A DNA stretch of 64,000 bases, taken from Cinnamomum chago. Lineage: Eukaryota; Streptophyta; Magnoliopsida; Laurales; Lauraceae. The stretch is from the NCBI GenBank assembly GCA_038049695.1, contig CP142453.1, forward strand, positions 1,257,501-1,321,500, written 5' to 3'. Shown piece after piece: positions 1 through 61,130 of this stretch; the stretch's first letter is position 1; each line of letters starts with the position of its first letter. The translations under genes and the position numbers were made by a program. The notes beneath the pieces were generated by a model, which saw nothing but the letters and a program-made list of their open reading frames with translations, ran no database searches and was not told the DNA's origin.

Positions 1-1077
1 TCTAGCCGAATGGACGTGATATGAGAGAGGATAACACAGCATCTTTTGAAAACTTTTTAGAAACTGTTTGCATATTCATTTTGGTATTGTAAGTATTAAA
101 GTGATATCCCCTGCATTGTATTTTAAATGTGCAGTGGTTGATAGTAGGAAACTACGATGATGTACAGTAACTTTACTGTTCATAGTAAAGTATATGATTC
201 GTTTTGTTAATGGTTGTCAATGTATATTATTTGTATATTCCGCACTGTACATTGACAGGTACGTATGCAAGATCCCTTGTAGATTCGTTTTAACTTCGGT
301 TATTTCGGATCTACGGGAATAAGTATGATTAACATCGCGACCCGGGGGTTAACCCTAATGACTCTGATCTCGGGTCCGGGTCGTGACATGGGTCTAACCT
401 GCTAATCCAATAAAAAGAAAACAAAACTGTTCGTTATTTTACAAAGTCAAACCATCACTCATGACCGGGCACTAAAAAAAACATAATATAGAGTGTAACC
501 TAGAGAAATTCCGAGTTCAAGAAGTGAAAACAGACACCAGAGAAAGTCAGAGTAAAAAAAAGGTAAGGAAGAATACCATGTGCCTACCAATTGAAACCTG
601 AATCATTTAAAATAAATATTTTTAAAGTATAATTCGAGTTTAGTGCTCTATGTTTGTGACGGTTCGATTTAAAAAAAAAAGGTGATCATCACAGTTGTAT
701 GCATATTCATTAAACCAACATGGAAAAAAAATTAAATCGATGTCAAATTTAAAGAAAACCCATAGACCAAAAGGACATTTATTAAATTTTAAGTTATTCG
801 GATTTTAATATGTTAACCTCACTGTGGAGATCAATTCCTTTTAACTCAGGATTTGTCTGGGTGAAAGCCTTAGAGAGGATCTAGACTCGTGAACCTGTCA
901 TTTCATAATAAAGAAGACTCACTGAACATGACATGCTCCATCAAGCCTGAGTAATTAAAACAATAACATTATGTGATCAAGGGGTGCTTGAAGACCCTCT
1001 TCATTTATTTAAGCCCCTATCCCAGACTTCTGCAGACCACACAACAGGAGCTCTGATGTAACTTTGGACACACACTG

Positions 1078-1116
<39 letters not shown>

Positions 1117-1123: not shown

Positions 1124-1291
1124 ATGGAAGAAACTTCTGCAAGGAATATCTCATCCAAGACAACTGAATCTTCTGCATCTTTGCATCCATGTTATTGCCT
1201 ACAGCTCGCCATAAAAAAATTACTTGGGTGCTTGGGTTTGTATTCTACCTTCAATGATCTTCCAAACAAAGAGGGGGAAATGAAAGCCACT

Positions 1292-1370
<79 letters not shown>

Positions 1371-1514
1371 AAGATACATATATATATATATATTCATGAT
1401 CTTGCTTTTATTCAACAGGAAGATAGATCCATATCGTCGTTGGACGCGAATTTGTTATCTAGAATGCCAAAGCCACCAGTCATAGATCCTGGCAGAGGCG
1501 GGCAGACCAACTAG
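1124..1514 (+). CDS. Plant elicitor peptide precursor (PROPEP-like), two exons
   Basis: Exons 1124..1291 and 1419..1514 join in phase 0 (GCCACT|gtaagt ... caacag|GAAGAT) into an 87-residue protein ending in TAG. Family knowledge: PROPEPs are small cytosolic precursors, often tethered to membranes. On damage, metacaspases cleave them after Arg and the C-terminal Pep peptide activates PEPR receptor kinases in immunity. Seen here: an acidic/Ser-rich start; a Cys-containing amphipathic segment at residues 23-40 ending in CLGL, like the LKCLGL segment of Arabidopsis PROPEP1; and a C-terminus GRGGQTN that fits the Pep motif GRxGxxN, with the terminal Asn. Arg59 and Arg71 are candidate cleavage sites. 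Cutting at Arg71 would leave MPKPPVIDPGRGGQTN. The start is the first ATG after the GA tract. Odd points are the 35-repeat CT tract in the intron and Pro in place of the Ser usual before Gly. AATAAAAATG near 1770 could serve polyadenylation. The alternative is a chance ORF, made unlikely by the two motifs and clean splice sites. Confidence 0.8.
1297..1366. repeat. (CT)n microsatellite in the PROPEP-like intron
   Basis: About 70 bases of pure CT begin five bases inside the intron, directly after the gtaagt donor, followed by a TA run (1377-1392). The tract is long enough to be length-polymorphic. Confidence 0.95.
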
Positions 1515-4129
1515 CAAGTAAAAAAAGCTCATCGTTTACTTGCATCTAACCTCAAATCAATGATATCTGATCAATGCTATCCAGAGTAAGAAGATGATGG
1601 AGAGAGGTTCCTGTAGGACCGACGAAACCGGGCTTCGGTGCTGTCGTCAGTGCAGCAGATCAAGGGCATGTATGTACATACACGTGCTTCGACAACCAAA
1701 CCCATGTATACATTTGCATGTTACTGTGTGAACCACCCACCTACCTCTGTATGTACATTAGCTTATAATAAAAATGAAGTTTTACTTGGATTCAGGAGTT
1801 TTATGAATGTGATCATGTGTTTTCTGAAGAAAAAATGGTGGGAATGGAGCTCAGAGACGTTTTACTGATGAGCTCTTTGACGATCATTAGGGATGCAAAT
1901 GGTATCCGACTATCCGGAAGTTCCGACCCAAAAAAACCAGGTTGAAAACCTATTTTAGGTTCCAATTCATAAACGGATCCCGATTCGAAACTCAATTTAG
2001 ATTCCGATTGATAAACGGGTCCGGTTCCGAGTCCATATAGGTTCTGACCCGTGGACCCAGGACCCAGCATATGAGCCGTTGCAAATTGTACCTTAAAATT
2101 AACTTTTTTTGTTGACATTTTTATATATAATATTGAAAATAATATATTTATTGCGCTGTTATAAGCTGAATGATATGCTTATTCTAAGAAAAATAAAGAA
2201 TAAAGAGAAATTAGAATTGATTTTGTAAATAGATTCAAATCCTCTAAGTGAACCCAGTTCCCAAACCGGATCCGAATTTTCCTATCAGAACCGGTTCTAA
2301 AACTAACAAAACAGGTTTCCAGTCAAAACCGGAACGTTATTTAAAAATAGATCCAGATCCACTATGGTTCTAATTCAGAACCATCCCCTTTGCAATCCTA
2401 GGAACATGAGTTGTTTACTGTTATAGATTGTTTGTTTGGTAAATGAGAATGGTTGACTACTTATGGGGTTTTCTGATAGGAGGAAGCCCTAGGAATTAGG
2501 TAGACAGTTCATTCAAAAAATTCATCCAGGGACTGAACCAAACTGACTGTAAAAGTTACTTCCTTCCAAATTTTAATTAAAGTGAGATCATTATAATCAG
2601 TCGGGTTTAAATTTTATTAAATGGTTTTTTTTTTTTTTTTTTTTTTTTGTGTGTGCTTGTGTATGTGTATGTTGTCTGATGTAGACATCTCAGTCGTCCA
2701 ATCTGAGGTGAAATCGATTGCAAGCTATTCTTTCGGTCCCAGTCATTATTAGTGAAGTCCTGATCATCATCAACTTCATTGGTTTTCAGCAGGGAACGAA
2801 CTTACGAACCACACACTTCATCCAGTGGCCCCGACGACATAAAGACGTACTCCAGCAACAAGTCAAGCAGCAGCCCACTCTACTCTCTAGGTTTTATAAT
2901 AAAATTTTGAACCTCAGATACAGTAGGCAAATTTTTGTTTACTTGTACTTCATCAGCAGCCAAAATATTTTGTCATATAAGACTTCAGTAAAGTGGTTTT
3001 ACATTCATGGTTGGAAACTCTATGACTTAGAATCTCCCAATTTGATTGAGATTTGCCTCCCTTAGTTAGGATCATTTTAACAAAAGTCCAGGTCAAAAAT
3101 AGGGAAGACTCGGCCGAGTCATCTTATTTTAATAAGTTATTTGCATTTAATAGAGACATCTAATTTTAAACAATTAAAATTCATTTATAAGTAATTATGC
3201 ATGAAGTTTGGAGTTAGTAATTTAAAAATGATGACTAAAATATAATTTGAAACTTACATAACTGTATTTAATCTTTTACATTCGATATTTGGACTAACAA
3301 ATTATGTAATATAATCTTTTTTTCTTTTATTTTTTTTTTTCTTATTGTAGTACTTTTCTTGCACATATAAATTTATTAAATTGAATTGATTATTATGAAT
3401 GCATGTGAATAAATGTATTTGTATATTTTATATTTTATAAGTAATGGATTCATTTTTAAATATTTTTAAAAACACATGACTCTCGCTAGTCTCCGTGTTA
3501 ACTCTATCCGAGTCAATCTTTTTGCATTGGATGAATCGAGTCTGAATCACGAGTTTTCCAACCTTTGTTCCATTACCTCTCAAAAACTTCTTGTCTCGCT
3601 TCAAATTACTTTTACCTTATGAAAACAAACAAAAAATTTAGTTTACTAAAAAAGTATACTTCTCTTTTACTCAATCATACACTTTCCACTATTTTGACAT
3701 TTAATTTACACTACTTTACTTGTAAATTATTCAAACATGGTAGAGGGTAATTTCAACCTATGGAAGGGCTCCTGCGCAGCTGCAGTGTGGACTGTGGAGA
3801 TTTCGGAAGAAAAAGAGGAACTATGAATGAGGAATGAACATCATCGACACAAATGAATCCAACTGCCTTATTTTCAGAACATTTCCTTCCATTTACATCT
3901 CATATTTACAGAATAACGCCTGTCATCTTTCTCTACAAAATTCCTCCATACCCAATACTCTGCCCATTTAAATATCCCCACCCAAATATATCTACACCTC
4001 AAAATTTCTGGAATTCAATACACATTTTAGAATACATAGCATCATAAAAATATGCAGACACCCCCTCAAGCCTCTTCCAGAAAGGCCATACCATTAATAC
4101 CAAAGCAAAGCAAAAGGTACTGCTACAAC
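1515..4129. other. Convergent intergenic region, PROPEP-like gene to RKP 3' end
   Basis: No convincing gene. 1889-2401 is dense in GGATCCG/GGTTCCG-like words, with roughly inverted ends (AGGGATGCAAATGG and CCATCCCCTTTGCAATCC), so it may be an old DNA element, but no target duplication was found. A T-run sits at 2624-2648. 3090-3560 is AT-rich with ACTCGGCCGAGTC-like words at its ends; a similar word set occurs in a HIT4 intron near 46630-46780. The RKP 3' UTR probably occupies the last 200-300 bases. Confidence 0.5.
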
Positions 4130-10100: not shown

Positions 10101-11015
10101 CAGATTTATGGCCATCAAATATTCCCTACTATCCCTAATACCAGTTGCCCTTTGCATTACTTTCAGACTGCATTTACACCTGATTTTATAACTTTCCACA
10201 TGATTATGATTGTAATAATATGTCTACATAGAAACCCACAAGATATCTAAAACTAAATATAGTAAGGAGCGAATCATTATATGTCATTCAACCATTTTAC
10301 TGGCATATCACAAGCAATCAGATCCATACCAACAGACAATAAGTAGTGAAACAGTACCGGACATTTCTCTTGCATCTCCCTGATAGAAACAGAGAACTCA
10401 GTCATTGTCCAGCTGAGAGTGTTGAACAGACGATTAAGAAAAGCTGAGAATAGACATTCATCACTGACACATGCTTCTCGTATCAAGTCCTTCGCACAGA
10501 AAGAAGACCAAACAGGATAAGAATAAGCTGAAAATCATGTTTGAAAATAATTATTTCCATACCCATACACATTCAGCCTGAAAAATCAAGTCGTTTCACC
10601 TGGAATAGTGTCGATGATGACGACTCCCCGTGCTTCGAGGAACCAAATCCAGAGCTTCTGCACAAGCGAAGAAGTATGTTTGTAACAGGGATCCAGGATC
10701 TGTTATCAAAAGCTGACAGCAACGCCCTAGGCATTCGCTGAATGGCTTCTTCATTGCTCTCAAAAGCAAGCAAGTAGTCTCTGTACTGCACTAAGACTTG
10801 AATGGATTGGAGAAGAAGATCTCTGAGAGCTGCACTTGATATCCGTGGGTCAGTGAAGTGCGTGACCACAAAGTTAACCTAGATGGAGACAAGCAGACAT
10901 CGAACTACTTCAGATTCCATAACCCATACCTTCTTTTTGTCAGTTAGTTCATACCTTAGATTACAAAAGGACCTCCTACTATTAAGTCTACTATAAGTGT
11001 TCAGTCATTAAATTA

Positions 11016-11108
<93 letters not shown>

Positions 11109-14100
11109 AAAGGCACATCGGATTCTAATAACTCATGATGAAATCAAATTTATTATCTTGTAATGTCGCTACAACAATACCAGCAATAATTTTAAGTTCT
11201 TATTTTTCTAGTAAGAGCAAGAATTTGAGTTTGGATGCTGAATCCCGGCTTCAGCCATCGGTAACATTTCATTTTATGATGTGGATAAATTCACATTAAT
11301 AAGCCATAACTTTTACCAAAAAAAAAAAAAAAACGAGAGCTCCATAATATCTCTGTAAAGCAATTTTTGCTTGAGATAAATGAAAAGGAAAAAATATCTA
11401 GGTAAGTTTCTTTTTTATGATAATATAAAAAAACCTAAGAGTGAAAAAAATCCGCACCAGGAACACAATAACAGCAATATGCAAGAGCAAGTCTATGGAT
11501 TATGTGTCGGACAGCAAAGAATTCACTGATGAAGAAGACAAATTATGGCTAAACAACAATTAAGGAAGTTACTAGATGAGTTGGATTCAACTTTGTTGCA
11601 TAGGTTGGTTTAAAATTTAAATGTTGTTTTATACCGTTTTTCTTCGGATGGGTTCGTTTCAGCAACCTTCATGTTTTTTTCATTATTTTTTTTTTTGGTA
11701 AATAACTCCTTATGTTCGAGATATTAAGGGTTACTCCTTTGTTAGATTTTGTAATCAGGTTGTTACTAGTTATCCTGGTTGGTTCCAGAATCAGAGTCAA
11801 CAGAAGTTCTTTGAAGTTCAGGTAGAAGAAGTGGTTAACTTTGTTATTAGTTGTCCTTGGTTTTTTTTTTTTTTTTAAGCCTTAGTTCAGGTTTTTAGCT
11901 AGTTGTTGAGGTTTTTAGGTTCAGGTAGCAGAAATGGGTGATTTTGTTAGTAGTAATCCTTCTCCCTCTCTCCCCCTGGACCCCCTCTACCCCTCCCTCC
12001 CTCCTCCATCCAAGCTGAAGCTTTGTCGGTCACTTTTAACTCAATGAAATAGACACATCTATTCTCTATACTAAATATAATCTCGATAATTATTATTTTC
12101 TTTCTAAAGCTTGAGATCAGTTTGCCACTTTTTCTTTAGGTTAATTCAAGGGTCTATATTAGGATTTTTTTTGTTTAAGTTCCAGATAGGGAAAGTAACT
12201 TTTAACTCAACAAGGTAGCAAGTCTATAGGCAAGTAAATATCAAATTTATGAGTCACCACCAGGTAAATAAAAGATGATCGGAGACGGAGTTGGATGCAG
12301 AATGGGTTTTGTTGAGATTGTTATTGTCTTGTCTATAGCCATCTAGACGATGTTGTTTCAGGTATGAGATTCTCTGTTCTTTGTCCCCCCATCCCCCTTC
12401 TTTCCGCTTTCTGATTATATTGGTGGAATTGCATGTGCATTTTGTACTCTCAATATGCATTGATTGTGGCTCTGGCTCTATTTGTAAACTCTTTACAGCC
12501 AATTTATAACGTATAAGCATGTCAGGCAAAGATTGTGCAAGCAAAGAGCCTGTCACAGAAGTTTTGACCAGTTTTGATTGGCCTCCATATTATTTGTATA
12601 TTTTGCTTTTAATTATGACATCAGAAAGTTGGACCCAATCAAAGCAGTGGCAGAACGAAGAAGCAGTGCTGGCTCCAAATCGGTTCCCAAAACATTATTG
12701 ATATAGAATGCTAAACTCTATCCCCTTCAGTTTATTACACCTAACTCTGATATGCCATTGCAACTGAGGACTCTCTTAACTGAAGCCAAGCATCCTATTA
12801 AACCTATCTTTCCCAACGGTAAGCCTAATCCCAAATTGAAACAGAATTTCTCACTCTTGTTTAGCTCCCACTTTGCATATACTTTTCAACAAACCTATGC
12901 CCTCTCCCCACACTCCTCATAACTATCATAATTTCCCTGATGTTGTACACAATAAGAAAAAAAAAGACTGCAAGTATGTGAAGCGGCAATTAAACAAATA
13001 ATAACTAAGAATGGAACAAAAGTCAAAAGTCAAATTGAAAAAAAAAATCACAATTAAGACTTACAAATGAATTAAGCCCATGCTTGATGAAAATGGCAGA
13101 GGATACAAAAGGAGGATCACTCTTACGCAATGCATGAAAGGAATCAACCTGAAATAATAAAAACACAGTTCAGCAAGATGAGTACTTTGTAGGGTCATAA
13201 AAAAGAAAACAAGAAGAACATGAGATTAAGTGAAAATTGATTAATTGATTACAAACAAAGGCAGAGTGCTTGTGGACTCAAAAGATAAAAACTAGATCAA
13301 TATGAAATTAGGTTGCTGAGATTAAATGAATAAAAGGATTTGTCGAGGATTTCATGGTGACAAATTTTATGTCAGCAAGGACCCATGCGATAAGCAGGTT
13401 TGGTGTTTTCTGTGCTAAGTCTTTCCTTGGGGTATATCTTTCCCAGTTTGTTTCTTATTATGTGGATTACGATGGTGCTCTTCGAAGTTGCTCGGATATG
13501 GTCTTTTTCTTTTCTTTTTTTGTGATATGGTCTTAAGTTGAGGGAGTGAACCCTCCAAGAAAGGAAAAGACAATTTATTTGTAAGTTAGTCATTGTCCAT
13601 ATTGTGGTCCATTTGGATAGAAAGTAATGGCTGCATCTTCAATATATAGGAGGAAGCTTCTCACACAATAAAAAGATGATTGGAATGATATGGGCTGTGT
13701 CAGTGTGACCAGCCATGGATGCTTTTATAGATTACAATTGTACTATATGTGAAAAACCCAAATATGGAAGGTGGACTGTCTAATCTCTAAGGATACTTAC
13801 AACAGGCTAATCTAATCTATAAGAATAATTATAATAGGCTAATCTAACATCCAGAAATTATAATGGATAATAATGCACTGAGGGTATAAAAAGAAAATAT
13901 GTTCCCTCAGCTCTTCCAAAGGAGAGGTCTTTAGAGACATTAGTCACTACAATGGCAGAAAATGGGCAATATAAGAAAGAATGCTTTGGTCTTGTGGTAA
14001 GGGCCCATTTATTTAAACCATGTTGAATTCTTAGAATTTCCAAGCATGGTTCAAAATAGCGGCCACTACGGCAGATCACTACGCTATCCTAAAAATAGGA

Positions 14101-17100: not shown

Positions 17101-20100
17101 TACAAGTGCCAGTTGAAACAACTCTCAGTTGTTTACATGGGATTATTTCAGATGAAAAGATGTTCCTGCCGCGTATCATGGGTTAGTTGACTACCTTAGC
17201 ATTCAATCCATTGAACTCGGAATTGTGTTGATGCTCAACCATCATAAAAGGCTCACATGCTCTTATTTACAGATAGCCAGGACAAGGACACAACAAACTT
17301 CTTTTTCTATCTTTCAATTTGTGAGCTCAAGAGGAAAAAAAAAAAATTTGATTACCATTAAATGGACACCAAACAATGAAAACCCATATGCATGATATTT
17401 AGAAAAGAGAATAAACAACAGTTTGATCACTCACCTGCTTAAAATTTGGAACAAGGCCCAAATGATACAACAATAGCATAGCGTCTAGCAGCTCCTCTTC
17501 TCTCAGTGAAGCTGAAGTCGAATTACTTTCACTTGGTAGACACCTCAGAGTCTGCAGGGTATGATATCCAAAATCTGATTCTGATTGGTCGCTTGAACTA
17601 GGCTTATACTCAATCTCATCATTCAAAGTTCCCGTGCTGCATTCAGCTGCGACGTGAGTAGATCTCTCTGGAATAGGAATACAGGGACTCCTTGAACCTT
17701 TGGATACATTCCTTATGGGATTCTTTGAGATTCTGGCAAAGTCAAGATCAGAATTTGAACAACAACAAGGCTTCTGCCTTGTAGAATGTGTTACTTTTGT
17801 TTCTTCATCATCCATACAGCCTTCTTCCCACTGAACCACTTCTGCCTCCCCATCATTAACAGGATGTGACTTCAGCAGCTGATCAAATGACCCACCAAGC
17901 CTAGAAATGTCAGTACGATGAGGATCATTTCCAAGGAACAAACTTACAGGAAAACTTTGCTGTCCGCCTCTGTGAAGAAAATTTTCATCAATTCCAGATT
18001 TTGCTGCAAGTCCCTTCATCCAACCAAATGTATCTCCCATGCCAAATCCTTCAGACAGGAAATATAGGATCACCGTGTACAAAGAAACAAGAACAGAATT
18101 GCCCGAAACATTAGGGGGTGGCACGTTGCGGTCTGCACCTCTGTTTTTCAGCATGAGGTTCTGCAAAAATGTTCTGAACACCATCCCTGGTACCTGAGGT
18201 GGTGTTGTTGGAGGTATAAACTGTATAACCAAGCGGCAGAGTTCCCTATGCACCTCCTCAATCTGCATATTGAGTACATCAACATTGATTATTAATTAGC
18301 AACATATCTGTTTTCAACAAATTACAGTATCGATCTCCATAAACCAAGTGCAAAAACCTATAATATTAAGTCCATTTTGCAGAAATCAGTAGAGCATGAT
18401 GCATTCAAGTATTTATTATACACAGAAACACTTAATAAGTGCTGCTGAAAGTAAGGGGAATGTTTACCAAAAAAAAAAAACAAAGAAAGAAAGGGGAATG
18501 AATGGGTTGCCAAGTGCTGAGATTTATGATATAAACAACACTACAACCTAAGGTATTAACTTTCCAAAAGTATGATAGGAAAGGGAAGACTAAAGCTTTC
18601 AAAAGGCACAACAATACAAGTATTTAGTACCAAGTAATAAGTTTGGTTGCATCAAATTTATTCAAGCATAGGCACAAAAGTGGTTGGGAGTCCTATGTTC
18701 ATCCAATTTGCTTTGCTATTTATTTTCCTTCTGTTTGTAACTTATATAGTGTTTCTAGAAATATAATTTAGTAGTGTAGAACTACAACCACATCCAATTC
18801 CAATTTCAAGAGAGATGGCATAGTCCACTGTCTTGTGCAGCGGAATTTCAAAACAACCTGGAAAGTGAATTGTCCAAGTGACTTGAAAGCGTGGAGAAAT
18901 TGTGCAGGACTTGGCTTTAGAATGAGTGACTTAAAACAGAATATGTGGGTAGAGTAGATCTCTTCATCCTAGCATGGGTTTTTCCTAGGAGGGTTGAGGT
19001 GCAGAATTTTCATCAATTTCTTCTAGTTTGTCACTCCCTGACCAAGAAGTGGAGTATATGCATGGAAAGAAAAAATTCAAACAAATGGGAGAACTTCCCA
19101 TTCATTACAAGTCTAGTCATTTGGGAGGTACAGTCATTCACCGTCTTGGGTTTTCTCTTGCAAAATTGAATACTTGTTTGATGGGTAGTCAATTGATCCC
19201 TGAACCACGCAATCAAACTTGTAGTGCTAGTTAATGTCATATTAGAACACTAAAAGTAAAAAAAAAAAATGGTAGCCATTTGAAAACCATTTCATGAACC
19301 TCACCTCAAAAACCAACTAAAAAAATAAATATAAAAATAAACAAACCTTGCTAATTGCCTCAGATAATGCTGTCGTTGTCAGTATCATACTGCTTTCAGA
19401 GGAACTGTCCTCACATGATCCCGGCCACCAAACAAATGGCATCAAGCACTCTAAATCCTCCTTGTTTGGACCCTTCCTTGATAGAAAGCCTTCCAACAAA
19501 AAATCAAAATCAGACGAACTCCAGAACAGAACCATCAGCTCCTCATGCCTGAGAAAATGGCACGCTAATGCAAGAAAAGGGTATGACCCAGAATGCGGGC
19601 ACTCTGCCAAAACCAAAGGTGCTGTTTTGCAACTGCATGAAAGGGCATTAATAACATGCTGGAACACAGTATGAGATCCTGGAAACTCCAGAAAGATATC
19701 CACAATCCTATCCAAACTTGAATAATCATGTGGTGCCCACCTTCTGAAGACTTCCAACAAGAATGATACAAGTGGGCCCCATGCAAAATATTCAGCACAA
19801 GCCGGCTGCATGTCAATTAAAGAAAATAACTCCTTGCAGATACCGCGAGAGATCGGGTGAAAAAGTTCATCGATAGGTGAAAACCTCTTCAATTTTCTCG
19901 GTTTGTTGACAGATGTTGGATCAGTCTTGTTTATGCTTTGCACCTCCAACAGTCTCAACAAGCATTGTAGCAAGTAAGTTATGACACAGATTTGTGTAGG
20001 AGGAGCTTGAATAGGAAGAAACCCATCGACAGGGAACTTGAAGGGGCGTGCCCCAAAATTTAGATCACAACGTTCGCCTTGGGAAAGAGAAATCGCAGGA

Positions 20101-20849
20101 AAATAGCCAAGTCCAGGCCCCATCTTATGAACCCTGTCAAAAGCCACTCCAAGCAGAACACCATTTCTGTAGAAAGAGATCTCATCGCAGTCCAAATCTA
20201 TACAGCACCCAATGACATCACCAACAACCCATGACTGACCATATGGTTCATCATTTCTATTCCATTTCTTAAGTCTCTTTCCATCAAAAGCATACGAATC
20301 CTCCACATCTCCAACGCCAATACAATCAGTAAACAGGCAAGAAAGAGCGGCCCAACCAAGTTGCTGAATCCCAGCAGTCTCTAGAATCACTTCATACATC
20401 CATTTCCCTTTCCACACACAGGCATTGGATCGGGCACTGCTGAACTTGGCAAGGCTTTCTATAACCGCCGGTGGCTTGAAAATGCAAATATTTCCACAAA
20501 TGCTATCTTTGTCTATCATGACCCTGCTCGGACCGCCGCCGCCGTTATCAGTAATACATATTCCGGTTCTATTACCACAAACCGCATCCGAGTTCCCATG
20601 AAGCTTCAAAATTTCATTCTTTAGAACAGAGCGTACAAAATCAACATCGATCAGACTAGTCGACAGATCAAATGATTTGTATGGGAGACCGAGTATGTGT
20701 TCAAGGGTCCGTTCTACAGACTGGTGGCCGATGTCGTCGCAATAAGAAACTAGATGTGCTCTCTGAGAACTCACTCTCAGATTGGCCCCATCTAAAATAA
20801 GGGCCAAACCCGAAGAAGACTGGTTAGGCCTAAAACCATCTTCCGCCAT
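4130..20849 (-). CDS. RKP: E3 ubiquitin-protein ligase RKP (KPC1-related; SPRY and RING), ten coding exons
   Basis: Coding exons in transcript order: 20849..19347, 18262..17435, 16602..16442, 15787..15649, 13148..13065, 10878..10600, 10489..10358, 7151..6952, 6128..5927, 4453..4130. All have GT-AG borders and keep frame, giving 1283 residues, close to the roughly 1280 of Arabidopsis RKP. Family role: RING E3 ligase resembling the catalytic subunit KPC1 of the mammalian Kip1 ubiquitination complex; in Arabidopsis it promotes turnover of the CDK inhibitor KRP1. Seen: start MAEDGFRPNQ; SPRY domain about residues 150-275 (WAALS, GDVIGCCIDLD, FYRNG, YFPAISLS); central helical region with ASYYMSHQSQ and SWIPVTNILLRLC; near the C-terminus a C3HC4 RING starting CCIC and including HISCYSCITRHLL and CFFC. 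Only the SPRY part and the RING are recognised domains. Large introns carry MITEs (5197-5543, 8257-8633, 15054-15219), a CT run (11021-11107) and a possible SINE (9969-10105). No stop or frameshift was seen, so it looks functional. Confidence 0.95.
5197..5345. mobile_element. MITE family A, copy 1 (RKP last intron)
   Basis: A foldback element with about 65-bp inverted arms (ATGCTCTCACCTTA, GAGATAGGGTG, GGGCCCTCACAT) around a short core containing TTAAGTTATTGGCATTGG. Related to 15054-15219, but with the core in the opposite orientation. The right side runs into TA repeats, so the target duplication cannot be read. Confidence 0.75.
5358..5543. mobile_element. MITE family B, copy 1 (186 bp, internally deleted)
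   Basis: Inverted ends contain CTCGTAAGCTCAAGCTTAGG on the left and the complement of a related sequence on the right, followed by GAGCCTTGCTC. Both flanks are ATATATAT, compatible with a target duplication but not proof. It matches the ends of the 377-bp copy at 8257-8633 and lacks about 180 internal bases of it. It lies 12 bp from MITE A copy 1. Confidence 0.75.
6649..6712. repeat. 32-bp tandem duplication in an RKP intron
   Basis: The segment AGAAGCTCTCTTTCTCC...CTAAAAT occurs twice in direct tandem with almost no divergence. No function is suggested. Confidence 0.7.
8248..8642. mobile_element. MITE family B, copy 2, with 9-bp target duplication
   Basis: The element proper is 8257-8633 (377 bp). 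It is flanked by the perfect direct repeat TATCATGTA (8248-8256 and 8634-8642). Inverted ends of about 70 bp share TCTCCTAAGCTCAAGCTTAG. A 9-bp duplication and ends starting with G fit a non-autonomous Mutator-like element. No coding capacity. It sits in an RKP intron. Confidence 0.85.
9969..10105 (-). mobile_element. Possible SINE remnant in an RKP intron
   Basis: Read on the minus strand, GGTGGTAGAGACATTG resembles a pol III A box and GAGTTTAAGCTC a degenerate B box, ending in a short A-run (complement of the T-run near 9967). No flanking duplication was found. The match is loose and may be chance. Confidence 0.3.
11021..11107. repeat. (CT)n microsatellite in an RKP intron
   Basis: About 86 bases of uninterrupted CT in the 10879-13064 intron. 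On the transcribed strand of RKP this is a GA tract. Confidence 0.95.
15054..15219. mobile_element. MITE family A, copy 2 (RKP intron)
   Basis: Near-palindromic element starting GGAGATGCTCCTATGAGAGA and ending with its near complement, embedded in TATATATA on both sides. The core (CATCCATATCTAATGCCAAC) is the reverse complement of the core of copy 1. A 14-bp word (GAGATAAGGTGGGG) is tandemly doubled in the left arm only, a copy-specific change. Confidence 0.8.
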
Positions 20850-31139: not shown

Positions 31140-33663
31140 TCCACTCCCGCAGAACATGCAAGAGACCACTCCCCATATCTCTCCTTTCCCCCTTCACCAT
31201 ACCCCCCAAACCGCCAGAACGGAGCCCGTATTGGCCGAAAACCCCGACGAATATTGCGGCAAGCGTTGTTACTCCACCTTTGTTCCCCCATACAACTCCT
31301 GGACCCACTATGGAGCCACCGTCCAATACAGGACACTCTAACATTTCTATGGAGATAGAGAAAAGTCCTGCCCCTCGCTCTTTCTGGGCAGCCCTATGCC
31401 CATCTCTGACTTCAGCTATACAAACTCTGGGGTCCAGCATCCGCTACTAGCTGGACATTTCCCAGCTCACTGTTAAGGATTCAACACCCGTCATTCTCCT
31501 ACAGGAGTCTCTCTTGGAGGAAAATCGGCGCAGCCTTCACAACACCCTTATTGGCCAATTCTTGGACCGACTGGTTCCGACCAGAATCCTTACTCAACGT
31601 CTCCCGGCCCTAGGGAAACTACAAGGTGGTCTGGAGGTTCTTGAACTCCCAAAGGGTTTCTTTCTTTTCAAGTTTACATCTGTGGAAGACCTTTGCAGGG
31701 CCCGTGAGGGCTCCCCTTGGACGGTTGTCGATTCTCCTTTGGCGGTTACAGCTTGGGTTCTGAACTTTGACCTTCAACAGGCATTCCTGGGCTCTGGACC
31801 CTTATGGATCCGGCTTCCAGGACTGCCGCTCGATTTCTGGAGCGACCAAGTTCCGAGACGAATAGCAGCTCCTCTGGCACCTTCATTCGAATGGATCAAG
31901 TTACTTCAAACTTGGGCCGCCTGGGGAAGAAGGCCACGACTGCACGAATCCTGGTTGATACTGATTTGCAAATCCCTTCGGTTAAGGAAGTCCTAATCAA
32001 AGTGGGCTCAAAGTCGAGATTATAGCCGGTTATTTACGATAACCCACCTCGGGAATGCGAAGCATGTGGACGCCTACAGCTGAACTCCCCACCTTGTATC
32101 TTCTGCAACCATGAGACTCCTCGGGCAACAACAACACTTCCTAACAATAAGGGGAAGGCAAAGGCAACCCCACCAGGCCCAGACCTAGAGTCTCAATCTG
32201 ATTATCCCATTCCTTCATCAAATGGAGAATGGCAGGAGGTTACTCGACGGAGAAGGGGAAGGAGATCACTAACGGGCCCGGACCTCCAGCGGGCCAAACC
32301 CGGAACCGATCCAGGTCCAGAGACTACCCATCAACCACTCATCCCATCAACTGACTCAACTGGTCCTGCTATTGGAGCACGTGGCAACAAACTTTTGCAC
32401 AAACCCACTCACATTTTACAACAGCGACATGCACAAGATAACAGCCATGCAGGGACCTCTTCATCTTCAGCAGCAAACCCAAGACACACATTACCAAGCC
32501 ACCCCAATCATTTTGACGTCCATTCAGACATTTCCCCCCAAGCTAGAGCGGGGCACCCAATGTTCGAAACTCAAATGATTGACACTTATCCTACAAATGA
32601 CCACTTCATATCTGACTCTAGCCTCCCACCGCACTGTCACCCCAACCAAGAGCACACTTCAGAGCCCACTTCAGATGCAGCCGCAATACACAGGTACCAA
32701 ATCCTCCAGGATCCATCACAACACTCAGACATCGCCTATCAAACCAAACCAAACATGCAACCCCCCCCCCCCCATACTAATATTCTCCCATTCCCTTAAA
32801 CCTCTCCTCTGTCCCTGCCATCCCCCTCCCCAAACCCTCAACATGTATCCCCTCCCACTTCGCCCCAGGCGAATCCTACCACGCCCACAACGTCAGACTC
32901 CAGTAAACTGGCAAAACCGACCACTGCAAACTCCTTCACCCTTCACCCTGTCAACCCAGAGCTTCTCAAACAACCCACTCCTAGCACCCTATCCATACCA
33001 CTCCCCCCCCCCCCCCCCCCCCACACACCTAGTCATTCCAACCAGACCTCACACCCTTACCTCCACACCCTCCCCACCTGGTTCTGAACGTCCCAGTCAT
33101 CAACCCATCCCACCCCTCTCCAACCCAACCCCAACTTCAACTGTCTAACTGCCCCCCTCCCATAACCAACCTCAACCAGTCCTCTTTTAGAACCAGGTGC
33201 CACACGGTCTCCATCTCAATCCTTTCAACCATTGGCAGTGGATACCAGCTTGGAAATGTCCATTGTCGGGGGCACTATGGACTCCTCTTCAACCTCTGGT
33301 TTCTGCTACCCTCTACAACCCGCCAGTCCAACCACCTTTGGTTCCTCCTGCACTTGGATTCTGGATCCCATTCCAGGCCAACTTGCTCTGTCGTCATCTC
33401 CTCCCCCCACCCTCTTTCCGGGAGGTCAGGTCGAAGGAAACATATTGGACACACTCAACTTGGCAAAGGAAGTGACCCCACAAAGTTTGGCAACTAGAAA
33501 TCAACCCACCCCAACCGGGGTCGAAGTAAATATGGAGTGGCCCCTCCTCCCGAACTTTCTCAACGAAACCATGCTGCTTGGTACTGGAATGCTACAGGAT
33601 GTTGTAAACAAGATGGCCACTCTTTCACCATGGCCAAATTCAAGGTCTCAAGACCAGATTTGA
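31140..33663 (+). pseudogene. LINE ORF1 (DUF4283 RNA-binding gag-like protein), broken
   Basis: Reading begins in the frame of 31121-31450 (SFWAALCPSLTSAIQTLGS), continues after an in-frame TAG at 31448-31450 and gives a DUF4283-like block at about 31514-31850 (GFFLFKFTS, WIRLPGLPLDFWS). It then shifts frame, with another TAG at 32023-32025, into a Cys-rich segment (ECEACGRLQ, CIFCNHETP) in the place of the usual zinc knuckle, and a Pro/Ser-rich tail. Poly(C) runs near 32760-32773 and 33002-33022 coincide with further frame changes. In active copies the product binds LINE RNA; this one cannot be made intact. Confidence 0.8.
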
Positions 33664-33777
33664 AGTTATAACTGACAATGAAGGGACTGAGCCTAGAGTC
33701 CTGGGACCTTCTCAAGCAATTCGTGAACATCCAGGAAGGTAAACAATTTATCCCTCTACCCTCTAAAATTGTTTTTT

Positions 33778-36700
33778 ATGACGACTCTGATTTGGAATGT
33801 ACGGGGGGCGAGGCGTAGACTCCTACACGGACTTCTGAACCACTTGGTGCATTCTCATAATCCTTCAATGGTGTTCCTGTTAGAAACGAAAGTTGAGCAA
33901 GTAACTAATAATCGTACCTTCAAGCTCCTCTCTCAGACTTTGCCTTCTCATATTGTTATCCCTGGTACGGGCCATAGTGGTGGTCTTTGGGCCTGCTGGG
34001 ATCCTCTGAGAGTGCATGCGGATCTGGTCCAATCTTCTTCTCAACACATAACACTTTATAGATCAGACCCCTTTAATAGGGGGACGTGTGTCATATTCAT
34101 AGCCATATATGCCTCCCCCAACTGGCTTACTTGTCGTAACTTGTGGGCGACTCTGACCCACTTCAAAACTAACCATTGTAACAATCACACCCAATCACAC
34201 CCCCTGGGTGTTTCTAAGTGATTTTAACTGCATCCTCAGCCCTCATGAACAGAGTGGGGGAGTGCCTATGGAACCATCCATGGTTGTCAGAGATTTTCAA
34301 CATTTTATCACTGATGCCGATTTGCATGATTTGGGATACGTTGGAAATCCCTACACCTGGTCTAACCTCCGTTCAGGATCTGCTAGAATCCTGGAACGCC
34401 TTGATCGTGGTCTGGCTAACTCGGCTTGGCTTCAAGCTTATGATGACTGGTTTATTCACCATCTTCCCTGGGTGGGTTCTGACCACAGTCATCTTCTTTT
34501 ATTTAAAGGCACTCCTCTGAATCACCCTAGAAGACCCTTCAGGTACGAGAACATGTGGCACTCTCACCCTCTATTTGACACATGGGTTAGGAGTCCTTGG
34601 CCAAGCCATGGCATCCCACTTTCGGAAAAACTGCATTATATGTCGTCGGCTCTATCGGTTTGGAACAAGTAGTCATTCGGAAATATTTTCCGAGAGTTGG
34701 ACAAACTTAAACGTTGCATTGCGGGCATCCAGAGGGTGGCAAACTACCATCACTCTTCCTTTCTGTATAATCTGGAGAAGGAACTCCAATCCAACTACGC
34801 TCTCAAAATCATTCCGATTGAGGACTTCTGGGCCCAGAGATCCAGAATCAACTGGTTGAGTCAGGGCGACTCCAACTCTCGTTTCTTCCATCTGGCGGCC
34901 AAAATATTTCACAGGAAAACTAAAATCTTCACCCTGCAAACTTACCTAGGCCACACCATCTCGAATAAAAAAGATCTGCTTACTCACTCTTTCCAAACCT
35001 TCTCTTCTTGGTTTACTACTCCTTCTCAAGTCCAGACCCCTGTCAACTTCACTATCCCTCAAAGCCTGGCCAAGTCCATCACCCATGCTAAGAACCTGAG
35101 TCTTATCAGTATCCATTCGCTCCATGAGATCCGCATGGCCGTTTTTTCTATTAATCCAAATAAAGCTCCCGGGCCGGATGGATTCAATGCTAAATTCTAT
35201 CAGTCATTCTAGGACTCCTTACAGCCAGACCTCCACCTCATGGTCTCAGACTTCTTCTCTCATGGAACCTTAGATCCCAAGTTGAATGAATCCACCCTCA
35301 TTCCAAAAAAAGATGGCCTTCTATCTCTTAAAGACTACAGACCTATCAGTCTGTGTAATGTGGCCTATAAATTTATCTCCAAAATTTTGGTTCACAGACC
35401 GAGACCCATCATTTCCCGAATCATCTTTGCCAATCAAGGGGCCTTTATCCAAGGTCGTCGCGCCTTGAACCATATAGTGGTGGCTAAAGAGATCGTTCAT
35501 GGGATGTCTAGACGCAAAGGGTCCAGAGCCTTGGTGGCGGTCAAGCTTGATGTTCAAAAGGCTTATGATACTATCAGTTGGTCATTCCTGGAAGCTTGTC
35601 TCAATAATCTGGGATTTCACCCAACCTTTGTAGCCAGGATTATGACATGTATTTCCTCCGTCCAATATAAAGTGAGGGTGAATGGGGAGTTCACTGGCCT
35701 CTTTACTCCTTCTCGCGGCCTTCGGCAGGGAAAACCCCTCTCGCCTTACCTTTACATTCTCTGCGCCGAGGCTCTAACTCGCTACACTTCTCAATTGAGC
35801 AACAACAACAGATTGTTGTACCCTAAAATTGCTCCAGGTGGCCAAAGAGTGGGTCTTCTTCAATTCGCGGATGATCTTCTCTTATTCCTGCACATTAACG
35901 AAAGATCCTCGAGTAACTTAAACCAAGCTTTACATCTCTTTGAAGAAGAAGCAGGCCAACGCATAAACAAAGATAAAAGCCAGCTCTTGTTCTTAACGAA
36001 CACCTTCCCATCCTTGGTTCGTCTAACAAGGGAGACTTTGCAGATTTTCATATCAGTCTCCTCCTTCGACTACCTTGGCACTCCTCTCACCCTGGGCAGA
36101 ACTCAACATACTACCTGGCAAAATACGCTAAAACGTGTTCGGAAGCGCATTGCAGGATGAAGAGGGTCTGCTGTCCCCAGCGGGCCGACGCATTCTTATC
36201 CAATCTGTCATCTCTGCTATCCCTATCTACTGGCTTGGTCACCTTTCTATTCCTAGCCAAGTTTTAAAGGAGCTGAACCGCACAAATGATGCTTTTCTTT
36301 GGTCTGGTACCCATTCTAGACAGGGGCTCCATCCTGTCGCCTGGGACAAAGTTACCAGACCCATCCATACTGGCGGCCTGGGCATCCGGGATGTGGCTAC
36401 CCAATCCGAAGCCCTACTCTCCCATTTAGTTTGGCGTTTTATTACCGAACCCAATTCCTACTGGTGCTCAGTTCTGTCCTAGAAATATCTTCGATTCAGC
36501 AACTTTAGAGATTGTAATCGCACTCCAAAAGACTCTTCCCTATGGAGGAGAATGCTCACTCTCAAGCACCATATATATGATCACTTTAGCTGGTCGGTTG
36601 GCAATGGAACTCAAATTAATGTTATTCATGACCGCTGGATCCCTGGACCGTTGTCTGATGGGCCCTTGTTTCTCAAGAAGCCTGATAACATACCTTCCCA

Positions 36701-37919
36701 CATTAGACATGTTTGTGACCTGATCATCCGAGATCAAAACAACAGTCTGTGCTGGGATAAACAACTCATAACTCATTGGTGCAACAGTGACTTGGTGGAG
36801 AATGTCTGCTCGATTCCTCTATGGCCGAAAAAAATGTCCCTTGTTGGAAGAATGAAAATGCCAGAAGATGCTCTATAAAAGCCCTTTATAATCACCTTAG
36901 ACCCCTTCAATTTGGGCCGAACCTCCCATGGCAGATCTTGTGGTCCCTTCCAATTCCCTCCAAGCACAAAATGTTTCTCTGGAAGTGCTTGCAGGACCGC
37001 CTTCTAACTCGGGATCGCCTGCACAAATTCTTTCCAGACATTAACCCCTTCTGTGTCCTTTGCCACCTTGAAAGGGAATCGGGCACGCACCTTTTCGCCA
37101 CTTGTGCTGCCACTGCTAATCTTCGCCAAACGCTTCATGACCGCTTGCAGTCCATATTCCTTTAGGACCAATTAATTCTTGGTTCTGGCTTCAACCTCAG
37201 GCGTCCTTGCAGATTCTAACCTGGTTCTGGTGGTATACCTGGAAAGCGAGAAATGCAATGATCTTCAAATCCGAACCGCTCCACCCCCTACCATCTTGCG
37301 GAAAATCCATCAGGCTTTGAATGGCTGGAACACGACACAAATGTTTCTTCGAGACAAGCACCTCAGTCAACTACCCCCGGAACAGTGGACACCTCCCCCT
37401 CAGGCTTTCCATAAACTTAACATTGATGGATCCTTTAACCATACCAGTGGCACTGCTGGAATTGGGGGGATTATCCAGAACCACCAGGGTATCCTCATCC
37501 AAGCTTTCGCGTCTACCACTATGGCCCGATCACCCCTGGAGGCTGAACTCCAAGCTCTTCTCAGGGGCATCCAAATGTGTGTTGAAAAGAATATCACAAA
37601 CGTCCTAATTGAAGGGGACTCGTTCATTATCTGGAATTCTTTAAATTTGGGTGAAGGGTACCCATGGACTCTCATGAAGATTTGGAGGAAAATCCAAACC
37701 ACCTTGGATAAGTTGCCTGGATGGAAGGCGACCCTTATCCGACGATCCACTAATAGGGTAGCAAACAGTCTTGCCAAGCTAGGTCCACCGATGGAAATGA
37801 CTTTCACTTCTTCCTTACCACTCCATATATGGTATACTTACTCAATGGAGATTTATGTGCAGGATATGCAAAGAGGGAGTAATGTGCATCATCTTCAGGA
37901 AGACCACATTTTGGAGTAG
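33778..37919 (+). pseudogene. LINE ORF2 (endonuclease, reverse transcriptase, RNase H), broken
   Basis: Start ATGACGACT at 33778. The endonuclease begins LIWNVRGARR; its DFN motif and SDHSHLLL follow after a frameshift near 34200. Reverse transcriptase spans about 34700-36100, with NKAPGPDGFN, DYRPISLCN, LDVQKAYD and the catalytic LQFADD at about 35857-35874. The usual GLRQGDPLSP box reads GLRQGKPLSP. Then come zf-RVT (PSKHKMFLWKCLQDRLLTRD, CVLCHLERESGTHLF) and RNase H at about 37410-37850 (NIDGS, EAELQAL, IEGDSF). In-frame TAG codons at 34670, 35210 and 36480 and frameshifts near 34200, 36130, 36850 and 37170 break it. Confidence 0.9.
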
Positions 37920-44800: not shown

Positions 44801-47019
44801 ATTGGATAAATGACTAGGTACTGATGTGGCCCGAAATTGCATTTTCTTTTCTAAAAAACTGAAGAATGACCTTTTTCTAAAAAAAAACTCATTGCTGATG
44901 GGGCTGATGTGCATATGAGGATTTGTTAATTAAAAAAGTTACATGATTTTTTTAAAGTACAAAACATTCATTTATTATCAATTAATTTTAATGATCTCTC
45001 TATTGATGAACCATGGATTACAACCATCCAAAGTGGGGCCTATGATCAAACCGGCTATTTACAATATCGTGATTAATGTCTATGATACGTACTCTTGGTT
45101 AAAAAAAAAACAATTGGTACATATCTGTTTCAACTTTCAACTGCATCTTTAGGCTCTGAAAATTAAAAGATTTGTATTATTAGTTTCTCCTATTAATTTT
45201 TTATGTTATTCTTTCTGTTTTTGCAGCTCAATTGGTTTTCTTTAAAGGTCAAGGGAAAGTAATATGTATTCCTGCCGTTGTGGCGGTAAATGACTTAACT
45301 TTCTTGCTTTTTCATTGATGTTGACTTCTTACAATTGTATTTTCCTGTGTGTAGTGTGTACATGCTTAAGTAATCACGCTTTTGACAGTTAGGATCTGTG
45401 AATTTAATAATTACTTGTGCATCACGTTTATGCTGGATTTCAAGCACTTGTTCTATTTCAATTACATCTTTTGCTAACCAAATCTGTATGCTGGAATGAA
45501 GTGGTTTGATGTTGCTAATTCACCATCTGTATGCATATTTAATATTTCAGTTACCTGTGTTATTAAGCAGGTTGTTAGCTCTCGTCCCCCTTCTGGTAAA
45601 ATTGGTGTAAAATCGGTTCAAAGGGAGACTGAAGAAATAATACCAATGAAGGAAATGAAGATGGCCTGGTTTCCATACATTCCATTAGAAGATAGGTATC
45701 TTCTATTCACTCCCATGCTTCAAATGTTTTAGATTCTCAGCATAGTTTGTTATTCTAGGAAATTTTTCTGTAAGTGCATTGTTTAATGCCATGTGTACTG
45801 ATTCACAGGCAAAGTCAAGTAGATAGATTGAAGACACAGATTTTTTATTTGAGCTGCACCCAAAGAAGGTATTGAGGAGCTATTTTTGTAGAGTTTTGCA
45901 TCCTTCACATTATACCTGGTAAAGTTAATTTATTGGATGGATAAAGACCTGGTTTTTTTGGTAAGCAAGACGTGTTGTTGAGAGGGACTAATGGAATTTG
46001 TTTAAAACCATAAATTATATTTATGAATGAATAAACTTTGATTAAGCGGCTTATTTTGTTTTTGAATTTTGGAAAATGCTGTTTTATTGATTTTTTTTTT
46101 TTTTTTTTGCTTGATGGATGAGTGGTACTGGTACAGAACCCTTGTGAAGAACTGCCTGCCCAAGGATCCCTGGGAAGCTGTGTGAGATGAGACACCCTTA
46201 ACCACTGGGGTTTCTCGTGTTTCTCCTGTTTTATTAAAGCTTAAATGAGTAATATTGTATTCTTTCAGGGTCAATTCAACTGAAATTTTACTAGGACTTA
46301 GATTGGATTTTTTAGTCCATTGGTTTTGGCAATTTCATGATGATTTGGTGGTTTTCTTTTCTTCCCATGGTTAATATTTGTCTATTCCGTTCAAGTCACA
46401 ATGCCTTGTTTTTTGAGCTTGGCACTTGGCTTGCCATGTCATTATTGCTGTTCACTTTTTGATAATTGGTGATCTTTTGATCATACTATTGATAATTAAA
46501 ACCATGTAATTCGTACGAGTCATGTTAAGGTATGTAATCAATGGGGGGAGAGAGAGAGACAGCTTTTCCATTTAGAATAATTTAGGAGGGTCATCCGAAT
46601 CATGTAATAATTTTTCTTACTTGGTGGGGCACTTAGGAACTCGGCTGAGTTGTCTCATTTGGTCTCATACTATCTGATTAAGTTGAACCTGGTTTGGACG
46701 AGTTGAGTTGAAACCTGAACGAGCCATCTGCTCGATTCACAACTTTACTCGACTCGGAATTGATGGCTTACGCCGACTGAGTTGATGGCAATTATATCCA
46801 TAGATTTGTTAAAAAAAAAAACAACAACACAAATCATATTCAAGCCTTACATTTTGTCCAATGCTAAAAGTTTAATTTACTTAAATTATATTTGAAATCA
46901 GAATTAATTTACATGAAATTTATGCAATTTTTCAAAGAGAATTTTGTTCTTCTAGTATTGATCATATTTTATATACTTATAAAAAATACATTTAATTTTT
47001 AAATTTAATTTAAAGCTAT

Positions 47020-47067
<48 letters not shown>

Positions 47068-50000
47068 AATTTACGACCATTTTTAATCTTGTAAAGCTGA
47101 TACCTTGATGCAGGGCTGGTCTGAGACATTTGAAGTTAGAACGGATCAAGAAATATGAATATTGTTTACCTTGTGAGTTCTCTTTTAACTTTCTATCTAT
47201 TTTTGTTTTTGTTTTTTCTACCTCATGTTATTGATGCACTCTCCTTGATCTCAGTGAAGAAAGTCCTGTAGCTCTCTCATGTCCACCCAATGGGTGGATT
47301 TGGTCAATGGTAGAAATTATCTTCTTATATACAAAGTTAGACAGTGTTTTGAGCTTTTATCCTCTTCATTCTGAAATCACCACAAAATTCAACTTGTATC
47401 ATTGTCTCCATAATCTTCCAAGTTGTTCTTCTATCATTGTAAGCACTAAGCACTAAGCAGGCACTCGATCTTCATATGAAATCTTGACAAGAGCCTGTTG
47501 CACAATTGGAAGGTGCTTACTATGGCAACCATGAGGTCGCAGGTTCGAGTATATTACCGTTCAAAAGATAAAAAGGGCACTTTATGTGAAATCTTACAGT
47601 AAATAATTAAATATTTGGCGTTCCACAAATGTTGCACTCCTTTGGGCTGTGTTGTGGTCTACTTGATCCCCTAGTTGTCAATTCCGTTCTGGTCCCCATT
47701 CTGGTTGGACCTTGTAATGGAATGTTTCAGCATTGTGGTTAATTATGGTGTTCCGTTCCGGAAAAGATGATATTGAAAAATTGGGAAAAAAAATTAAAAG
47801 AATGGCTAAAATTGAAAAAAATAGTTGAATGCTAAAGCAATACTAAAAATGCATACTCATATCACTTAAATTAAACTACACTTTGTAGTGATCATTTTCT
47901 AGTTTTCACTATATGTGAATGGAAGTATCAAACATGGGATGGAATTGTGTCACGCCCTCATATTGGATTACCTTAATGGTCCCAATTCTGAGACGTAACT
48001 TGTGTGGGGTTTTGAGTCATTTTGACTCTAATGATATTTTACCCTCGTATGATACCCACATAATATCACATGTGAGGATACATGCATTTTCCATCACGTT
48101 TTTTAAATTCTTCTTGCGGAAGCTTGTATCAACAGTAATAAACATATAACTATGTGCATCAACATATACTGTGCATATACAGTCCCAAAATATGTCCAAT
48201 ATAGGAGTGTCTAAGTTCACAACATTAAGAAAAGTGTTTTATATACAATCCCAAAACTAGAAGTCTATCACAGTCAACCACAAAAAACTCTCCCAAGTAC
48301 TGACCAATAAATGTCAAAACAACCATCCAACCAAAACCATCCCCTGTGATGAAGCTCATGTAGCTGGATGTCAATACAACATCATCAGGAATCCGCTAAG
48401 CTAACTCCTGTGGGGTCTCCTCAACCGCCTCAGTCTCTTGGGTAGGGGTGAGGCCGTGAGGGTGAGGTTACATCATCAAACAACTAAGCAAGTATGCAAC
48501 TATAATAAACGTATCAAATGTGAATAAAGACAAGTGATCATAAGATAACAGATAAGTCTACAACTAAGCATGCATGAATGTATGAAACATATAAGAATCA
48601 GATAAAGACATCTAATAGTGAAACCTATAAAATTGGCCCAATCCACATAAGTTATATTCTCCCAGAATGGTTGTAATTGTGACAAGAACACGCAGATATA
48701 ATTTTAAACAGATCACTGGTTCCCAGGATTCTACAAGGGAATTTAATATCATAGTGTGGCCACTATACAGATTACAGATAACAGGGTGATACCTGGAGGA
48801 CAGAGTCACTCCTACGCAGGGGCTATGCTGCAGCTAGCCATACAGATAAATACAATCCATATGTCGCCGCGTCCGACTACAGAACGGAATTGACAACTAT
48901 GACTTGATCCCAGGTTTCCATCTTTTTAGATGTCGATCATTAGAGAAGTCCTTCCAACAATTGTCACCCTCCATTATATAATCATTTGACAGCAACGTTT
49001 TAGTTAGTCTGATCTACCTAATCCATGAGCGTTGGACTACTATTCTTGCCTGTTGGTTCTATTCTATTTTCATTCTGACAAGTTTCAGAATATGTTTTAT
49101 TTGTTCCATTGGGTATCTGTGCCATTGTTGCCTATTTCTGTTTAAAGTGGAATTCTTGACCACCATTTGTAGTCATCTGTGTAATGAAAACTTTCTAATA
49201 AATATATATTCTAGTAGCTAAGTTTCATTGTTATGGCAGATTTTGAAAACCCTCTGAAGGAGGATGATGTAGAGCAGGATACAGTTGTTCAACTCATGTA
49301 TCCTTCAGAACCTCCGGTTAGTATGCAAAATTTCTATGTAGTTAATTTGCCATGTTGTCTAGTATTACTTTCTCATCCATACTCACAGTGAACTTCTCAT
49401 ATTTTTTAGTGATCGAACCATATTGCTCATATCTGCTTTGGCAGACATTTGATTTTTCTGCTGGAGCCGATTGTGGGTGTGGAGTTCTGTTTCAGGAAGA
49501 GACATTGAAGGGGCAGTGAAACTCAGATCTAAATCCTTGATCACATGTGGATGGAGTTGATCTAGCCAATCTCTAAGTAAAATACCAAGATAAACTCCCA
49601 ACCTCAGAGAATGAGAGAGATGATCACTCAAAAAAATCTTTCCAGAGCTAAGATTCGACCAGCTCCTTGCTCTTAATTGTATTCAGATTGGGAAAAACAT
49701 TCCTGGGTTGTGTTTTCTCCAACCCCTTGTTCACAATTGTATTCAGATTGAAAAAACACTCCTCAATTGTGCTTGATTCTTGCTCAGAATAATATATACA
49801 CAATGTAAATTGAAAAACTGACAAAACTGTAGATATCCCTATTGATCACCAATGACCAGCCTATTTCTATACGATTAGACAGGACAGAGTACCCAGTCCA
49901 GCTCGGATTCCCACCTTGCAACACAAACAACTATGGAAAAAAAAGGAAGAAGGAAAGTTTCTTCAAACCAAACTTAAAACTAATTGGAAGCTAGGAATTT

Positions 50001-60770: not shown

Positions 60771-61130
60771 GGAGGGAAGTCCTAGTTGGTAGGAGTCTAG
60801 GAGATGATGAAGAAAGCAAACAGGATGGATGACTGCAAGAGGTGTAAGTTGGTGGAGGGGTTTTATGGTTGAAAAGAGAGAGGAGAGGAGAGGAGAGGGT
60901 TTTATGGTTGAAAAGAGAGAGGAGAGGGGGGGGGGGGGGGGGGGGCGGGGGTAGGAAAAAGCAAAGGAAGTGGTCAGACGGTTTGATGAAGACAGGAAAC
61001 AAAAGAAAATCACTTGCTGATAAATAACAGCTGTTGCTACTTGCTAATGTGGGATCAAGATGGTTGAAATGAAGTAATTTGAACAGCCACATATTGGTTC
61101 TGTCACTAGTAGATAACCCTTACCACGAAA
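60771..61130 (-). promoter_or_regulatory. NF-YB leader and proximal promoter, with tandem repeat and poly(G) tract
   Basis: A 40-bp unit, GGTTTTATGGTTGAAAAGAG followed by a GGAGAG-type run, is doubled at about 60857-60927. It leads into 18 or more G at about 60928-60946 (poly-C in the mRNA sense). A weak TATA-like TTATTTATC lies near 61020-61030 on the minus strand. Only about 350 bp separates the start codon from LINE-like sequence. Confidence 0.5.

Follow-up and report, generated by a model that had tools for sequence, protein, structure and literature searches.

Close to the start of a 64,000-nucleotide stretch of the Cinnamomum chago genome (referred to here as the window), a small two-exon gene was identified that is very probably a PROPEP, the precursor gene of a plant elicitor peptide (Pep), in a species of the Lauraceae and thus a magnoliid. 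The PROPEP identity proposed in the initial annotation is supported because the spliced product matches the Pfam Pep1_7 family, a duplicate elsewhere in the genome passes the cut-off of that family, conservation between the two copies is focused on the last ten residues, and a PEPR-like receptor gene is encoded in the same genome. The gene extends a known family by one member that has a core motif of its own; it does not constitute a new kind of system.

Structure of the PROPEP locus

The locus was modeled as a spliced open reading frame on the + strand, in which exons at 1124–1291 (168 nt) and 1419–1514 (96 nt including the stop codon) are joined to give an 87-aa product, MEETSARNISSKTTESSASLHPCYCLQLAIKKLLGCLGLYSTFNDLPNKEGEMKATEDRSISSLDANLLSRMPKPPVIDPGRGGQTN; in contig coordinates the gene spans contig 3 1258624–1259014. 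The claim that two exons splice cleanly into 87 residues proved exact: the intron is of the GT–AG type and in phase 0, with a GTAAGT donor at 1292 and an acceptor, TTCAACAG, ending at 1418. The frame starts with the ATG at 1124 and is preceded by an in-frame stop at 1010. If left unspliced, it enters a CT repeat and reaches a stop codon in front of the C-terminal motif, so that intron removal is required for this motif to be encoded. The gene had been described as split by a microsatellite, and this CT repeat (about 1298–1366) indeed lies within the 127-nt intron. It is one of three long CT microsatellites in the window, the others being at 10983–11138 and 46983–47094. The intron of the duplicate contains a corresponding repeat. 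A pattern scan upstream of the ATG, carried out with no control, returned one W-box-like element (445), one TGACG/CGTCA element (657), and one TATA-like element (1006). The C. chago genome annotation removed models of less than 50 aa, as stated in an excerpt of its description (PMC11068913), so an 87-aa model was not barred by length. The features of the locus, all on the + strand, are as follows.

1006..1013, +, TATA-like TATTTAAG, 118 bp upstream of the ATG; a consensus match only
1080..1114, +, GA microsatellite directly 5' of the ATG, likely in the 5' UTR
1124..1291, +, PROPEP exon 1, 56 codons with a phase 0 end; the Pep1_7 match starts here
1190..1243, +, hydrophobic Cys-containing segment CYCLQLAIKKLLGCLGLY, residues 23–40; counterpart of AtPROPEP1 LQCLDQTLRAILKCLGLF
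1292..1418, +, PROPEP intron, 127 nt, GTAAGT...TTCAACAG, with the CT microsatellite inside
1419..1514, +, PROPEP exon 2, 31 codons and stop codon TAG
1458..1463, +, Ser-Arg, residues 70–71, kept in the duplicate; putative metacaspase cut after Arg71
1464..1511, +, predicted mature peptide MPKPPVIDPGRGGQTN, 16 aa; length predicted from the conserved Ser-Arg and the sufficiency of AtPep1 residues 9–23
1482..1511, +, IDPGRGGQTN, identical in the window copy and the contig 9 duplicate
1767..1772, +, AATAAA, a poly(A)-signal-like hexamer, within 3' flank that is still partly alignable with the duplicate

Elsewhere in the window, a LINE-like element was present in pieces at 31514–37919 (+), comprising DUF4283, a weak endonuclease match below its cut-off, and reverse transcriptase and RVT_3 frames; a further DUF4283 frame with a proline-rich tail, at 61726–63186 (+), possibly stems from another retroelement.

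Assignment to the Pep1_7 family

A family-profile search, the check named in advance by the initial annotation, matched the 87-aa protein to Pfam PF17232 (Pep1_7, "Elicitor peptide 1-7") with 27.3 bits and an E value of 5.3e-6, about one bit higher than the curated cut-off of 26.2 bits. Residues 16–83 of the protein were matched to positions 12–82 of the 82-position profile. Pep1_7 was the sole Pfam family listed for the protein at E values up to 10, and none of nine shuffled versions of the protein matched any Pfam family. As a control, AtPROPEP1 scored 62.6 bits, with a match likewise stopping four residues short of the C-terminus. Because the Pep1_7 match to the window protein ends before the last four residues, the terminal Gln-Thr-Asn represents evidence separate from the profile. 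Exon 2 nevertheless adds to the match, since the score fell to 25.5 bits when the last six residues were removed, and exon 1 translated with its unspliced continuation scored 20.2 bits, below the cut-off; the spliced product thus fits Pep1_7 better than its parts do.

Pairwise comparison by BLASTP with the AtPROPEP1 sequence aligned both ends of the protein, i.e. the CLGL segment and the C-terminus, with 23/89 identical residues and an E value of 6e-6, which applies to that single comparison. An amphipathic, Cys-containing segment ending in CLGL had been claimed for the window protein; the Cys-containing segment and its CLGL ending are present and align with the CL...CLGL segment of AtPROPEP1, whereas the amphipathic character found no support. 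The Eisenberg moment for residues 23–40 was 0.235 in the window protein and 0.149 in the duplicate, compared with 0.545 in the amphipathic AtPROPEP1 counterpart, and the segment is hydrophobic, not clearly amphipathic.

The Pep of a PROPEP lies at the extreme C-terminus, with Gly at position 17 and, outside the grasses, a terminal Asn as conserved positions (PMC4526913; also an excerpt of PMC5782389). Both C. chago copies end in ...DPGRGGQTN-stop, in agreement with the GRGGQTN terminus and final Asn that had been read at the outset. The N-terminus is polar by inspection, and hydrophobicity peaks only in the 18-mer that begins at residue 26; as judged by inspection and hydrophobicity, an N-terminal hydrophobic stretch is absent and a secretion signal appears to be lacking. 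Lack of a secretion signal is a described feature of pro-PEP1 (PMC11371470, in excerpt).

A duplicate copy on contig 9 and conservation between the copies

A second copy was located on the minus strand of contig 9, with exons at 71825945–71825790 and 71825668–71825555 encoding 89 aa. This duplicate passes the Pep1_7 cut-off alone (30.3 bits). Two unrelated families were also matched weakly, at E 0.02 and 0.34, without reaching their cut-offs. The intron position is shared by both copies, in phase 0 and with a CT microsatellite in each intron. Neither intron length (127 nt in the window copy and 121 nt in the duplicate) is a multiple of three, yet both spliced frames are open. Divergence between the copies is seen at synonymous sites and in the middle of the protein, while the C-terminal IDPGRGGQTN is unchanged in the duplicate.

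The 82 codons that could be aligned gave a dN of 0.27 and a dS of 0.56 between the copies. The last ten codons showed no nonsynonymous and three synonymous differences (dN 0, dS 0.59), and amino acid differences numbered 0/10 in this stretch versus 29/72 elsewhere (Fisher P 0.012, for a ten-codon boundary chosen post hoc from the alignment of a single gene pair). Conservation of the C-terminus as such was expected beforehand. For the last 18 codons dN was 0.19, and for the Cys segment 0.16. The Ser-Arg immediately preceding the 16-residue tail is also kept in both copies. A fixed C-terminus combined with a variable body is the pattern that a peptide precursor should show.

The surroundings of the two copies are inversely collinear, with nine matching stretches from 43 to 58 kb of the window found in reversed order on contig 9. 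Also within this order is an NF-YB-like histone-fold transcription factor gene at 60 kb (60117–61013, –), whose collinear contig 9 copy differs, over 77 codons, with a dN of 0.04 and a dS of 0.92. Matches that break the order, i.e. one from window position 6313 and several joining window 5–15 kb with a single piece located past the gene, are probably repeats. We infer that the PROPEP pair sits in a block derived from an old genome duplication. The dS values of both the PROPEP pair and its neighboring NF-YB-like pair argue against recent copying, both pairs being too short for dating. At 19317–20849 (–), the window contains an intact exon for an RKP-type E3 ubiquitin ligase with RKP_N and SPRY domains; no blastn match to this gene was seen in the five contig 9 pieces compared (49,901 bases).

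Three other explanations for the locus were weighed against these data. A former PROPEP that has lost expression or activity, i.e. a pseudogene in progress, would be in keeping with the high dN over the 82 codons and with the length of the microsatellites in the intron and 5' flank, but is improbable: at a dS of about 0.56, both copies retain an intact frame, splice sites, and final ten residues, and PROPEPs of different plant families are known to differ greatly (PMC4526913). Still less probable is a chance open frame with a chance splice ending in a Pep-like string. The margin over the Pfam cut-off is small. The loose pattern G[RK]xGxx[NH]-stop occurs twice in the six frames of the window, against an average of 0.25 occurrences across 20 mononucleotide shuffles, and such a short C-terminal pattern is by itself weak evidence for a PROPEP. 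The locus is placed above chance by the profile match, which extends over most of the protein and is shared by none of the nine shuffled proteins, and by an independent duplicate that has the intron and C-terminus in common with it and exceeds the cut-off unaided. Several plant signaling peptide families carry short Gly/Pro/Asn-rich C-terminal motifs, and a merely PROPEP-like precursor of another such family (PIP, CEP, IDA, or similar) could share this property; it is the least probable of the three, given that no family other than Pep1_7 was listed at E values up to 10, that PIP, CEP, and IDA-type precursors are secreted whereas an N-terminal hydrophobic stretch is lacking here, and that the CL...CLGL segment is held in common with AtPROPEP1.

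Search for further copies

The genome (14 contigs, 1,061,006,199 bases) was scanned with PF17232. Because exons are scored one at a time, the scan could overlook additional PROPEPs that have diverged. Four exon matches were obtained, none above the cut-off, among which the two PROPEP copies ranked first and third (E 0.065 and 1.25). The two other matches, at contig 6 27171705 and contig 1 40357258, and a separate candidate at contig 11 474327 were rejected as PROPEPs: all had translations unlike a PROPEP by eye and no G[RK]xGxx[NH]-stop nearby (the surroundings scanned were 3,135 and 3,195 bases for two of the loci), those on contigs 6 and 11 contained internal stops, and the contig 11 candidate gave a weak protein match (E 5.95).

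A candidate PEPR receptor

The genome was also searched with the AtPEPR1 ectodomain. Of 1617 first-look candidates, 63 were scored and 189 matches counted, and the best among the matches listed was at contig 2 5152730–5154838 (705 bits, 52% identity), well ahead of the runner-up (427 bits, 41%). The contig 2 match covers residues 2–708 of the 709-aa query, with 366/704 aligned residues identical, and the solved structure that it matches best is that of PEPR1, 5gr8. The frame spans 997 codons and, by inspection, continues into a hydrophobic membrane-type stretch followed by a kinase domain, the latter 61% identical over the matched part to the AtPEPR1 kinase region. On contig 4, at about 80.7–84.4 Mb and apart from this candidate, LRR receptor-like matches to the same ectodomain query are densely clustered.

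Tyr395, Asp441, and Arg487 of AtPEPR1, the last of which we take to be its LRR-18 arginine, are conserved in the contig 2 candidate, and Arg491 is replaced by Ser. In AtPep1, Gln21 and Asn23 are the residues that Tyr395 and Asp441 reportedly bind (excerpt of PMC6668560), and an LRR-18 arginine of PEPR1, unnumbered in the passage concerned, is described as holding the C-terminal Asn (PMC6749341). The C. chago peptide retains the Gln and Asn that match these conserved PEPR contacts. On sequence grounds, the contig 2 gene is a candidate PEPR orthologue and the putative receptor for the Lauraceae peptide.

Proposed processing and perception

Expression, cleavage, release, and activity of the C. 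chago PROPEP would be expected by analogy with characterized family members. The precursor would stay intracellular, retained at a membrane through the hydrophobic segment that contains Cys, until damage allowed a calcium-activated type II metacaspase to cleave it after Arg71. Enzymes of this type reportedly cleave after Arg or Lys. Once freed, a C-terminal peptide of some 16 residues (MPKPPVIDPGRGGQTN) would exit the damaged cell. A PEPR ectodomain, together with a BAK1-type co-receptor, would bind it via its terminal Gln-x-Asn, and immune signaling in neighboring cells would be amplified. For AtPROPEP1, the passages available from PMC11371470 describe a tonoplast-retained precursor that is freed by calcium-dependent type II metacaspases and perceived by PEPR1/2 with BAK1.

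The Ser-Arg at residues 70–71 was paired by BLASTP with the Ser-Arg preceding AtPep1 and was unpaired in a three-way alignment; because the two methods disagree on this pairing, the Arg71 cut site is tentative. A 16-mer is a plausible length, since residues 9–23 of AtPep1 suffice for activity (PMC4526913).

Core motif and place among described Peps

PROPEPs are reported from most sequenced angiosperms (Lori et al., in excerpt), and the Pep motifs described, for Brassicaceae, Solanaceae, Poaceae, and Rosaceae, vary by family (PMC4526913; PMC5782389, the latter in excerpt). No magnoliid PROPEP was found in the open-licence papers searched, supplements being outside the scope of that search; one of these papers names both Amborella and PROPEPs, though in passages that have nothing to do with each other. 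The strings GRGGQTN and IDPGRGG and three similar ones were likewise not found in open-licence text, where only GRPGQHN of AtPep1 appeared; such a search is insensitive, peptides often being given in figures or supplements. The Lauraceae PROPEP, its duplicate, and the candidate receptor together form a putative ligand–receptor pair from a magnoliid, outside both eudicots and monocots. Such a pair can help to separate ancestral parts of the Pep code (the terminal Gln-x-Asn and Gly17) from position 15, which drifts between families. No known principle is overturned by it.

In AtPep1, Ser15, Gly17, and Asn23 are critical, and the motif SxGxxxxxN is present in all eight AtPeps (PMC4526913). Ser15-Ser16 of AtPep1 is replaced by Asp-Pro in both C. 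chago copies, and Gly17 and Asn23 are retained. The initial annotation had pointed to Pro in place of the usual Ser before the motif, which is right as to the sequence (position 16), and had linked it to a receptor preference of its own, which the C. chago Pep might have. Asp at the position of the critical Ser15 is the more notable substitution. Asp15 bars the peptide only from the Brassicaceae motif class, because the motif was defined on AtPeps and SlPep6 has Gly at this position (PMC4526913). It is possible, though we regard it as rather less than an even chance, that the Lauraceae and perhaps other magnoliids use a Pep code of their own, with an Asp-Pro-Gly-Arg-Gly-Gly-Gln-Thr-Asn core that is acidic at the Ser15 position, read by a PEPR that keeps the Gln-x-Asn pocket and has co-evolved at the Ser15 contact, the pair being orthogonal to those of eudicots and grasses. 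How strict Pep incompatibility between families is continues to be debated, according to an excerpt of PMC13148170.

Compared with AtPROPEP1 and AtPep1, the C. chago precursor is alike in being small and without an N-terminal hydrophobic signal, in its Cys-containing hydrophobic segment ending in CLGL, and in its terminal G-R-x-G-Q-x-N. It is unlike them in its low overall identity, in the Asp-Pro core, in a Cys segment that is hydrophobic and not clearly amphipathic, and in a less basic peptide (net charge of the last 16 residues +1, versus +3 for AtPep1). The putative receptor resembles AtPEPR1 (PDB 5gr8) across the ectodomain and at the three conserved contact residues, and differs from it by Ser at the Arg491 position. 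With the Peps of Solanaceae and Rosaceae, the C. chago peptide shares a C-terminal Gly, a terminal Asn, and a family-specific core motif (PMC4526913; excerpts of PMC5782389 and PMC11289955); ZmPep1, in contrast to a terminal Asn, ends in His (PMC4526913). Among Rosaceae Peps, Gly and Asn do not vary, and substitutions of Ser are very rare (excerpt of PMC5782389). Position 15 sets these peptides apart: Gly in SlPep6, Ser or, rarely, a similar hydroxyl residue in the Rosaceae, and Asp in C. chago.
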